A stretch of DNA of 57,439 nucleotides. Source: Gammaproteobacteria bacterium. Its GTDB lineage: Bacteria > Pseudomonadota > Gammaproteobacteria > Thiohalomonadales > Thiohalomonadaceae. The translations under genes and the position numbers were made by a program. Under the pieces are notes generated by a model that was not told where the DNA came from, ran no database searches, and was given only the letters and a program-made list of their open reading frames with translations. Positions 30,241 through 54,644 of the stretch are shown here, one piece after another (positions within the stretch are counted from its first letter, which is position 1; each line of letters opens with the position of its first letter). The stretch lies in assembly GCA_026196275.1 (NCBI GenBank), contig JAPHTQ010000051.1:1-57439 (forward strand), in the 5' to 3' direction.

Positions 30241-30256
30241 TTGTCATTTATGGCAA
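30241..30256. promoter_or_regulatory. upstream activator dyad 1
   Basis: TTGTCA-TTTA-TGGCAA, a 6-4-6 inverted repeat with one mismatch, eight bases from the activator's own ATG. With dyad 2 it gives the consensus TTGYCA-N4-TGRCAA. It is the probable binding site of the activator and could also let it repress itself. Confidence 0.6.
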
Positions 30257-30272
30257 TATTGGTAGGTATTCT

Positions 30273-30288
30273 TTGCCAAATTTGACAA
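30273..30288. promoter_or_regulatory. upstream activator dyad 2
   Basis: TTGCCA-AATT-TGACAA, again 6-4-6, inside the 18-base near-palindrome TTTGCCAAATTTGACAAA (30272-30289). Its centre is 32 bp from dyad 1, about three helical turns, so both sites face the same side. A third half site TTGCCA follows at 30291. The distance to the -24 GG is about 140 bp, usual for sigma-54 enhancers. Confidence 0.6.
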
Positions 30289-30375
30289 AGTTGCCACACT
30301 TTTTCTTGATATTTCGACCATACTCTCTCACTAAGGGTAGTTTTTTATTCCCGGGTGAAATCTTTTTTTTATGAA

Positions 30376-30417: not shown

Positions 30418-30435
30418 TTGGCAAGCCACTTGCTA
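30418..30435 (+). promoter_or_regulatory. sigma-54 (-24/-12) promoter
   Basis: TTGGCAAGCCACTTGCTA matches YTGGCACG-N4-TTGCW with one mismatch. The invariant GG (30420-30421) and GC (30432-30433) are separated by exactly ten bases. It points toward leuS and away from the activator gene. Transcription should start near 30444-30446. There is a caveat: GCAAG-CCA-CTTGC within it is also a small palindrome. Confidence 0.7.
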
Positions 30436-30444
30436 TATCTCAGG

Positions 30445-30666
30445 GCAGAGAGGGCTGGTGCCGATCACGCATCAGGGTTGTCCGGATGATGACCGTACCC
30501 GATGATTTTTTGCTGTGGTAGTAAGTGTGGTGCTTGCGGTTCAGTGACCCGGTTACCGGCTTTGCCGGTGCGGTGAGCGGTCGCAGCTGAAGCGGCAGGA
30601 AAGGTCAGACTCCTCCTACTTATCCTGCTTTTTATATGGTGGACGCCCCCCGTCCACCTTTTTTTT
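30445..30666 (+). ncRNA. putative sigma-54-dependent small RNA
   Basis: About 220 nt between the sigma-54 promoter and a strong terminator. I find no convincing ORF: the best candidates are 11-15 codons without a good ribosome site. A perfect hairpin ACCGGC-TTT-GCCGGT lies at 30555-30569. An anti-Shine-Dalgarno-like CTCCTCC (30610-30616) is preceded by AGGAAAGG, and a GGA occurs at CCGGATG and in the terminator stem. It does not match 6S, 4.5S, tmRNA or RNase P RNA features that I know. Its position recalls regulators such as CrcZ or GlmY, which use sigma-54 activators, but no sequence similarity is claimed. An unusually long leader of leuS is the alternative, but the terminator ends before leuS. 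Confidence 0.5.
30638..30666 (+). terminator. strong intrinsic terminator of the putative small RNA
   Basis: GGTGGACG (30638-30645), CCCCC loop, CGTCCACC (30651-30658), then eight T. It lacks an A-run on the left side, so it works for plus-strand transcription only. It lies 100 bases before leuS, with no other plus-strand gene upstream since lnt at 28193. Confidence 0.9.
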
Positions 30667-30699
30667 GCCTGTTCTCCCCGCCAGGCCCTATCCCTGTTA

Positions 30700-30767: not shown

Positions 30768-33239
30768 ATGGCGTTCGATGAGCAGTACCGATCCGATCAA
30801 ATAGAGCAGTCCGCCCAGCACTACTGGGAGGAGCGGCACTCCTTCAAGGCCCACGATGATAGCTCGCGCGAGAAGTACTACTGTCTCTCGATGTTTCCCT
30901 ATCCGAGCGGTCGCCTGCACATGGGGCATGTGCGCAACTACACCATCGGCGATGTGATCAGCCGCTACCAGCGCATGCTGGGCAAGAACGTGCTGCAGCC
31001 GATGGGCTGGGACGCCTTCGGCCTGCCGGCGGAGAACGCGGCGATCAAGAACAATGTGCCGCCGGCCAAGTGGACCTACGAGAATATCGATTACATGCGG
31101 GGCCAGCTCAAGCGCCTCGGCTTTGGCTATGACTGGGAGCGGGAGATCGCCACCTGCCATCCCGGCTACTACCGCTGGGAGCAGTGGCTCTTCACCAGAC
31201 TGTTCGAGAAGGGGCTGGTCTACAAGAAGACTGCTCCGGTCAACTGGTGTCCCAACGATATGACGGTGCTGGCCAATGAGCAGGTGATCGATGGCTGTTG
31301 CTGGCGTTGTGATACCCCGGTGGAGCGCAAGGAGATCCCGCAGTACTTCATGAAGATCACTGCCTATGCCGATGAGCTGCTGGCGGGGCTGGATAAACTG
31401 CCCGGCTGGCCCGAGCAGGTGCGCACCATGCAGAAGAACTGGATCGGCCGCTCCGAGGGGGTTGAGCTGGTCTTTGAGGTGGAGGGCGAGCCGCTAAAGG
31501 TCTTTACCACCCGTCCCGATACATTGATGGGGGTGAGCTACGTGGCGGTGGCGCCGGAACATCCGCTGGCGCTGCACGCGGCCGGCAAAAATCCTAACCT
31601 GGTAGCCTTCATCGACAAATGCAAGAAGATGGAGACCTCCGAAGCGGCGATGGAGACGATGGAGAAGGAGGGGGTTGATACCGGCCTCAAGGCGCGCCAT
31701 CCCCTCAGCGGCGAGGAGGTGCCGGTGTTCGCCGCCAACTTCGTACTGATGAGCTACGGCGAGGGGGCGGTGATGGCAGTGCCGGCCCATGATCAGCGTG
31801 ACTGGGAGTTTGCCAAAAAGTACCGGTTGCCGATCAAGCAGGTGATCTCGCCGCTCGATACCGATATCGAGGTGGAGCTCGCCGAGGGGGCATGGACCGA
31901 AAAGGGCATTCTGATCGAGTCGGGTGAGTTTAACGGACTCTCCTCGCAGCAGGCCTTCGATGCCATCGCGGAGAAGCTGCAGGAGCTTGGCAAGGGGGGC
32001 AAAACCATCAACTACCGCCTGCGCGACTGGGGCGTCTCGCGCCAACGCTACTGGGGCTGCCCCATCCCGATCATCAACTGCGGCAACTGCGGCGAGGTGC
32101 CGGTACCGGAGGAGCAGCTGCCGGTGGTGCTGCCGGAGGAGGTGGCCTTCGATGGGGTCGGTTCACCGATCAAGAAGATGCCGGAGTTCTACCAGACCAC
32201 CTGCCCCAGGTGCGGTGCCGAGGCGGAGCGCGAGACCGATACCTTCGATACCTTCATGGAATCCTCCTGGTACTATGCCCGTTATACCTGCCGTGACAAT
32301 GACGGGGCGATGCTGGACAAGCGCGCCGACTACTGGCTGCCGGTCGATCAGTACATCGGCGGCATCGAGCACGCGATCCTGCACCTGCTCTATGCGCGTT
32401 TCTATCACAAATTGCTGCGGGATGAAGGGCTGCTCGGTTCCGATGAGCCGTTCGAGAACCTGCTGACCCAGGGGATGGTGCTCAAGGACGGGGCAAAGAT
32501 GTCCAAGTCCAAGGGTAACACCGTCGACCCGCAGGAGCTGATCGACAAGTACGGCGCCGACACCGTGCGTCTCTTCACTATGTTCGCCGCGCCGCCGGAG
32601 CAGTCGCTGGAGTGGAACGACTCCGGCGTGGAGGGGGCACACCGATTCCTCAAGCGTGTATGGAATTTTGCGTTTGAGTACTTGCCAGAGAATGCCCCTG
32701 ACTTTGCTAAAGAGACAAATTGGGCGGATCTGCCAGAACATTTGAAAACGTTTAGGCGAGAAATTCATGAAAATTTACAACAAGCATTGTCTGACTTTGG
32801 TAGATATCAATTTAATACCGTCGCAGCTGCATGCATGAAAATCATGAATGTTTTGGGGATGTGTGGGAAATCTACCAACCCAGATGACTGGTTAAAGAAA
32901 GTAGAGTCCGAGGGATATTCCATCCTGTTGCGCCTGCTCTCACCGATCGCCCCCCATGCCACCCACACCCTGTGGCGTGAGCTGGGTTATGGCGACGACA
33001 TCCTCACCGCCCCCTGGCCCGAGGTGGATGAGGCGGCGTTGGTGAAGGACAGCATCGACCTGGTGGTGCAGGTCAACGGCAAGGTGCGCAGCCAGATCAG
33101 CGTGCCGGCGGGTGCCGATAATGCCACCATTGAGGAGCTCGCCCTGGCCGATGCCAAGGTGCAGAACTTTGTCGAGGGCAAGACCCTGCGCAAGATTATC
33201 GTGGTCCCCGGTCGCCTGGTGAATGTGGTGGCCAACTAG
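30768..33239 (+). CDS. leuS: leucyl-tRNA synthetase
   Basis: 823 residues. It charges tRNA-Leu with leucine. Class I signatures are HMGH (51-54) and KMSKS (577-581), with the CP1 editing domain between them and zinc-type cysteines in NCGNCG and CPRCG. From about residue 628 to 720 (bases 32650-32925) the DNA turns AT-rich with different codon choice, while the reading frame and the anticodon-binding domain stay intact. The gene heads a likely operon with lptE and holA (gaps of 12 and -4 bases). Confidence 0.98.
32650..32925 (+). other. low-GC patch inside leuS
   Basis: I counted 70 G+C in bases 32701-32880 (39%), with one 60-base line at 28%. Flanking lines 32521-32580 and 32941-33000 have 63% and 67%. 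Codons such as AAA, TTA and TTT, rare in the flanks, dominate. The frame is unbroken. The encoded anticodon-binding helices (for example [24 protein letters not shown]) look normal. This suggests a recombined segment from a lower-GC relative. Confidence 0.8.
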
Positions 33240-53156: not shown

Positions 53157-54644
53157 TCAGGCCAGGCGTTTTCTTTCGTTAGAGGGCGCAATAGCCATTG
53201 CTTCACGGTATTTGGCTACCGTGCGGCGTGCGATATTAATGCCCTGTTCGGAAAGGGTATTGGCAATCTTGCTGTCGCTCAAGGGTTTTGCGGGTGACTC
53301 CTCCGCGATCAACTCCTTGATCATGGCACGTATTGCGGTGGATGAGCACTCCCCGCCGCCAGCGGTGCCCACATGACTGGAGAAGAAATACTTCAGCTCG
53401 AAAATACCGCGAGGGGTATGCATATACTTGCGGGTGGTGGTGCGTGAAATGGTGGACTCATGCATGCCCAGTTCTTCGGCGATGTCGTGCAATACCATCG
53501 GTTTCATAGCCACTTCACCCTCCTCAAGAAAGGCGCGCTGGTGCTCGACAATACTGCTGGCAACGCGCAACAGGGTCTCATTCCTGCTCTGGAGGCTTTT
53601 GATGAACCAGCGGGCTTCCTGCATGTGGCCTTTCAAGGTGGCCGAGTCTGTGCTGTTCATCTGCTTGATAAGACTGGCGTAGTGGTGGTTAATACGCAGA
53701 CGTGGTGCGGCATCGGAATTGAGCTCCACCCTCCAGCTGCCTTTGGTTTTGCGCACGATGACATCGGGCACGATATATTCCGGCTGACTGTTGCTGAGAT
53801 GTCCACCCGGTCGCGGATTCAGACTCTGGATCAGCTGGGTAATACGGGTCAGCTCTTCTTCACTGACTTTCATTACCCTCTTGAGTTGAGTGTAGTCGCG
53901 CCGGGCCAGCAGTTCAAAGTGTTTCGCCAGCAGGGTCTGTGCCTGAGGCAGCCATTTGGTCTCCTGGGGCAGCATTTGCAGCTGCAGCATCAGGCTTTCC
54001 CGCAGATCGCGCGCAGCGACACCGGGCGGATCGAGGTGCTGTATGACATGAAGCACCGCCTCGACCTCGTCCAGTTCCAGTTCCGGATCCCGCTGCTGCA
54101 GGCCTGAGAGCAGCTCTTCGAGGCTGCTGCTGAGAAAGCCATTGTCATCGACCGAATCGATGATCGCCTCGCCGATGGTGATATCGGTTTCGGACAGCGG
54201 GGTCATGTGCAGCTGCCAGAGCAGGTGCTGGCGCAGGTCTTCGCTACTGGTGTCGCCATACTCAAGGTCGCGCTCGCCACTGTCGGCAGGGGCGGAGCTG
54301 GCTGCAGGCGCAGATTCGTAGATATCTTCCCAGACACTGTCAACCGGCAGCTCATCGGGGATGGAGTCGCTCTCCATGGGGCGCTCGGGCTCGTTGTACT
54401 CCTGCCCGTTCTCCTCGGCGGCCTGCGCTTCGGCCTGCTCCTGCTGCAGCGACTCGACTTCCTTTTCGTACTCACCGGGCTCATCGGTGTCGTCGACCAC
54501 CTCCAGCATGAGATTGGAGTCGAGAGCCTGCTGGACCTCCATCTGCAGCTCGAGCGTCGACAACTGCAACATGCGGATCGCCTGCTGCAGTTGCGGCGTC
54601 ATGGTCAGTTGTTGGCCAATGCGTAGCTGTAGTGATTGCTTCAT
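53157..54644 (-). CDS. rpoN: RNA polymerase sigma-54 factor
   Basis: 495 residues. N-terminal Q-rich region I (LRIGQQLTMTPQLQQAIRMLQLS) contacts activators. An acidic region II follows, then the core-binding domain and C-terminal DNA-binding HTH with the RpoN box ARRTVAKYRE. It is the sigma factor needed by the activator at 28911-30233 and its predicted -24/-12 promoter. It lies between lptB and hpf as usual. Confidence 0.97.
   Translation of the reverse strand: MKQSLQLRIGQQLTMTPQLQQAIRMLQLSTLELQMEVQQALDSNLMLEVVDDTDEPGEYEKEVESLQQEQAEAQAAEENGQEYNEPERPMESDSIPDELPVDSVWEDIYESAPAASSAPADSGERDLEYGDTSSEDLRQHLLWQLHMTPLSETDITIGEAIIDSVDDNGFLSSSLEELLSGLQQRDPELELDEVEAVLHVIQHLDPPGVAARDLRESLMLQLQMLPQETKWLPQAQTLLAKHFELLARRDYTQLKRVMKVSEEELTRITQLIQSLNPRPGGHLSNSQPEYIVPDVIVRKTKGSWRVELNSDAAPRLRINHHYASLIKQMNSTDSATLKGHMQEARWFIKSLQSRNETLLRVASSIVEHQRAFLEEGEVAMKPMVLHDIAEELGMHESTISRTTTRKYMHTPRGIFELKYFFSSHVGTAGGGECSSTAIRAMIKELIAEESPAKPLSDSKIANTLSEQGINIARRTVAKYREAMAIAPSNERKRLA

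Follow-up and report, generated by a model that had tools for sequence, protein, structure and literature searches.

Two inverted repeats of the form TTGYCA-N4-TGRCAA, located beside the start of a gene for a FisR-like sigma-54 activator, are best explained as a whole as the paired upstream activator site of this divergently transcribed activator, a reading that we hold with high confidence. They were analysed within a window of 57,439 nucleotides, meaning the whole stretch of DNA studied. Sequence comparison gives good support for an operator function of the dyads, which almost certainly represent the place where the activator would bind to switch on the neighbouring sigma-54 promoter; that the cognate activator itself is the bound protein we infer from co-conservation alone.

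Features of the activator locus, with positions numbered from the first letter of the window
Feature	Position	Strand	Description
FisR-like sigma-54 activator, 440 residues	28911..30233	-	PAS_4 with C54-x10-C65-x6-C72, AAA+ domain, Fis-type HTH
Dyad 1, TTGTCA-TTTA-TGGCAA	30241..30256	.	Predicted distal activator-binding site
Dyad 2, TTGCCA-AATT-TGACAA	30273..30288	.	Predicted proximal activator-binding site
Third half site TTGCCA, single	30291..30296	+	Without partner arm, weak; sequence only
Sigma-54 promoter TTGGCAAGCCACTTGCT, -24/-12	30418..30434	+	Transcription start expected near 30445
Predicted transcript, about 225 nt	30445..30667	+	No substantial ORF; extent deduced from promoter and terminator
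Ten-codon ORF MTVPDDFLLW	30489..30521	+	Resembles the start of small membrane ORFs (L084/L092); possibly a relic
Intrinsic terminator GGTGGACG-CCCCC-CGTCCACC, then T8	30638..30667	+	Strong

The earlier note had described twin dyads followed by a third half site, placed 140–170 bp before the -24 element and adjoining the start of the activator. Both dyads are indeed present and lie far above chance expectation. Their centres fall at 30248.5 and 30280.5, giving a separation of 32 bp, and precede the -24 GG by 171.5 and 139.5 bp, respectively, with dyad 1 only 7 bases from the activator ATG (30233, minus strand). The dyads are therefore in helical phase and within the approximately 100–200 bp ahead of the -24 element that mark a sigma-54 upstream activator site. 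The third half site also exists; it is a single 6-mer and, taken alone, is not significant.

Within the whole genome of 2,544,934 bases, the exact pattern TTGYCA-N4-TGRCAA was found at 2 sites, both at 30241–30288, and the backward pattern used as a control gave 0 matches. The shorter core TGYCA-N4-TGRCA occurs at 12 sites genome-wide (6 for the backward control), among which the twin dyads form the only pair. The remaining ten, eight within long ORFs and two (L128 and L131) intergenic, are unpaired, and the whole-genome search placed no sigma-54 consensus match within 400 bp of any of them; on these grounds they were rejected as further targets. Thus the search for paired dyads near sigma-54 promoters that the earlier note had proposed returned a single pair, the one described here. 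A stricter pattern, TRTGYCA-N4-TGRCA, gave scattered unpaired matches besides the activator loci in six relatives and was uninformative.

Homologs of the activator were gathered by a homology search across genomes and from related loci, three of them by tblastn of plasmid records; homologs that match almost the full length of the protein with 57–61% identity occur in fourteen genomes. For 20 homologous activator genes, the 160 bp surrounding the 5′ end were searched, and the core TGYCA-N4-TGRCA was present exactly in 9 and with at most one mismatch in 16, against means of 0.03 and 0.5 for order-1 shuffles, a comparison that overstates independence because the homologs are mutually related, yet the proteins are only 43–61% identical. 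The outer base of each arm varies, leaving TGYCA-N4-TGRCA as the conserved core, and the spacer of 4 is specific, since spacers of 0–3 and 5–8 gave at most 1 exact and at most 3 near matches in the same 20 homologs. Furthermore, 8 of the 22 stretches compared have a second site 30–33 bp from the first, where the null gives 0.22 on average and never more than 2, and in two more distant marine relatives (L005 and L183) the dyads are spaced by 20–22 bp, equivalent to two turns. Sigma-54 consensus elements are located 94–179 bp beyond the dyads in most loci (76 bp in L003), and the sequence flanking the dyads diverges freely between loci. No near-exact dyad was found in L096 or L184, none was found at the activator 5′ end in L095, and in L004 and L182, homologs of the Cupriavidus type, the arrangement deviates. 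The conserved sequence, spacer and phased pairs fit the prediction of a conserved phased enhancer for this activator family. Hence the dyads are conserved upstream of orthologous activators, and the proposal that they constitute the recognition sequence of the activator is supported at the level of sequence.

The dyads could instead bind another regulator, for example a Crp/FNR-type protein controlling the activator gene. Perfect N4-spaced dyads are typical of Crp/FNR-type sites, FNR boxes having a 4-base spacer, and the dyads have the same spacing and sit just ahead of the activator start codon. However, their core is TGYCA and not TTGAT, many sites would be expected for a global regulator whereas the sole pair in the genome is here, and across genomes the dyads track the activator family and its cyd promoters, which leaves a Crp/FNR-type occupant unlikely.

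All four Pfam domains of the activator (PAS_4, Sigma54_activat, AAA_lid_14 and HTH_8) scored above their cut-offs, and among NCBIfam equivalogs the protein fell far below every listed cut-off. An alignment of 12 homologs, betaproteobacterial relatives included, preserves C-x10-C-x6-C (C54, C65 and C72) without exception. A homolog from C. metallidurans, 52% identical and with the same cysteine spacing, is divergent from a gene for a PDO-like protein of the metallo-beta-lactamase fold, followed by an SQR-like flavoprotein gene, both of which were checked against Pfam. The activator is FisR-like, and by homology it likely responds to a sulfane-sulfur signal. As in FisR-type regulators, a regulatory domain is combined with an AAA+ domain and a Fis-type HTH, three cysteines are present and a sigma-54 promoter lies divergently; adjacent pdo/sqr sulfide oxidation genes are absent, the short transcript alone following, and we therefore name the protein FisR-like and not FisR.

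The genome contains rpoN, whose gene (Sigma54_DBD domain, 53166–53636, minus strand) is on the same contig as the dyads, about 23 kb away. A second activator of the same type (G000:C50:34862-36175, minus strand) shows 48% identity over residues 20–435, and activators resembling it also occur in many relatives. Near it (C50:32991), a perfect sigma-54 consensus promoter precedes small repeated secreted-protein genes, and relatives at its level of identity (L098–L100) show TGACATGACA-like arrangements upstream.

In other genomes the activator mostly adjoins cytochrome bd or sulfide-oxidation-type genes. The neighbour is cydP-cydA in L087, L089, L090, L093, L101 and L183, cydA in L184, PDO-like in L003, L004 and L086 (with cydA next in L086) and an SQR-like flavoprotein in L097, PDO-like or SQR-like genes following in L003, L004, L086, L097 and L182; in L096 it is a hemerythrin. 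These product names were read from the sequence by eye, except for the annotated L183, the Pfam-tested hemerythrin and the Cupriavidus pair. In L088 and L094, which belong to one genus, a gene for a TonB-dependent receptor, likewise named by eye, takes the place of cytochrome bd next to the activator, and no match to cytochrome bd was found in either genome. Cytochrome bd subunit I is likewise absent from the source genome by profile search. Sulfide raises CydAB in A. baumannii, and cytochrome bd has been described as refractory to sulfide (PMC7315123), making the pairing of such an activator with cytochrome bd physiologically sensible. A link between FisR and cytochrome bd is apparently unreported, as none was found in the open-access literature searched.

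At the present locus, the promoter TTGGCAAGCCACTTGCT has one mismatch to TGGCAYRNNNNTTGCW, its TGGCA box beginning at 30419, and leuS starts at 30768, beyond the terminator. The ten-codon ORF within the predicted transcript was likened to the N-termini MPLDNFTLW and MIIDNLTIF of ORFs in L084 and L092, where a single-helix ORF of 41–43 codons occupies the same position and is followed by a terminator-like hairpin and a T run; 0.24% of the ATGs in the window score equally well, and the comparison covered three candidate ATGs. The L084 and L092 ORFs are orphan membrane ORFs with a conserved SRRP[IV] close to the C-terminus; each has a sigma-54 promoter on one side, a terminator on the other and no companion ORF in between, beside a FisR-like gene. 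A Pfam search gave no convincing match for them. A search for the small-ORF family was clear in its own source genome alone, weak in G002 (E = 0.06) and without a match in the genome of the window.

Nothing in Rfam supported a known RNA family for the transcript, the matches being sub-threshold and due to chance (ar14, 21 bits versus a gathering score of 58.8). A DNA search in 56 relatives gave short chance matches alone, and folding of the transcript (z = -1.6) indicated no strong structure. The transcript may be what is left of a gene for a small membrane protein; candidate explanations are a broken small gene, an indel in the assembly, a micropeptide and a genuine small RNA. We put forward only tentatively, as the less probable outcome, that the sole target of the activator here is a sigma-54-dependent, sulfane-sulfur-responsive short RNA of ∼225 nt or micropeptide replacing an ancestral cytochrome bd operon.

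Promoter and terminator might alternatively form an attenuated leader of leuS and not a separate transcript, a proposal that concerns the target, not the dyads, and is compatible with a paired activator site. With leuS starting about 100 bp past the terminator and two Leu codons in the ten-codon ORF the arrangement has some resemblance to a leader, but the Leu codons number only two, the analogous transcript in L084 and L092 is not followed by leuS, and the terminator is a strong one for which no alternative pairing is evident, so that attenuation of leuS appears very unlikely.

The placement of dyads in relatives bears on whether the paired site acts on the sigma-54 promoter, on the activator gene or on both. 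In G001 (L085), where activator and cyd operon are co-oriented, one dyad is beside the activator start, and further dyads occupy the region that separates the activator from the cyd operon, ahead of a sigma-54-type element. In G006 (L095), a small conserved gene and cydA lie downstream of a sigma-54-like element TGGCCCCACCGTTGCA, which in turn has the dyad TGCCATATATGGCA upstream of it, and no dyad was found at the activator start, the dyad being kept only at the target promoter. Paired dyads adjoin the activator in G010 (L091) with no adjoining sigma-54 promoter, and the activator start of L085 likewise has a dyad though no sigma-54 promoter follows. Dyads at cyd promoters and, separately, at activator 5′ ends support a combination of activation and autoregulation for most members, though not for all. 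The autoregulation suggested in the earlier note is thus plausible from the sequences, favoured by L085 and L091, and is not borne out in G006. That the dyads only autoregulate the activator, the sigma-54 promoter being driven via other sites, would suit their persistence in L085 and L091 but is highly improbable given the G006 dyad, absent at the activator start and present before the cyd promoter, the G001 dyads at both activator start and cyd side, and distances to the -24 elements that suit an enhancer.

With the dyads taken as a paired activator site, each would bind one activator dimer via the Fis-type helix-turn-helix, and a pair of dimers on the same DNA face, separated by three helical turns, would seed an AAA+ hexamer. 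This hexamer would loop over about 140–170 bp and open the sigma-54 promoter. Reactive sulfane sulfur is probably the signal, perceived via the three cysteines in the PAS domain. Since the 60 bp ahead of the activator start codon are taken up by the sites, binding probably also limits expression of the activator itself. The short terminated transcript is probably a remnant, or a replacement, after loss of the usual cytochrome bd target.

The activator itself is of the known FisR-like kind; what is added here is a predicted operator rule, the link to cytochrome bd and the odd short transcript. Under this rule, pairs of TGYCA-N4-TGRCA, 30–33 bp apart and upstream of a sigma-54 promoter, would make FisR-like regulons readable from genomes. 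Moreover, the dyads point to a connection between a sulfane-sulfur-type sensor and a sulfide-resistant cytochrome bd oxidase, and the short transcript is a candidate RNA regulator.

Enhancers of NorR and NtrC comprise at least two dyads in helical phase, 100–200 bp before a sigma-54 promoter and often adjoining the activator gene. The present sites share the phased dyads ahead of a sigma-54 promoter and near the activator gene, but differ in the recognition sequence, TGYCA-N4-TGRCA, and in the sensor domain of the activator. The cysteines of FisR from Cupriavidus pinatubonensis, which we take to be C53, C64 and C71, have a spacing equal to that of C54/C65/C72. That activator of pdo-sqr also has the N-terminal regulatory domain, AAA+ domain and Fis-type HTH, and is divergent from its target; the target here, in contrast, is a short transcript in which no gene is clear, relatives mostly have cytochrome bd as the target, and at Cupriavidus-type loci the operator looks altered. 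In C. pinatubonensis, three conserved cysteines let FisR sense reactive sulfur, and FisR activates genes for sulfide oxidation that depend on sigma-54 (PMC9774590). FisR of A. baumannii is similarly a divergent sigma-54 activator of PDO-SQR genes, in an organism where sulfide raises CydAB, but is without the Cupriavidus cysteines, which the protein in the window has in invariant form (PMC7315123).
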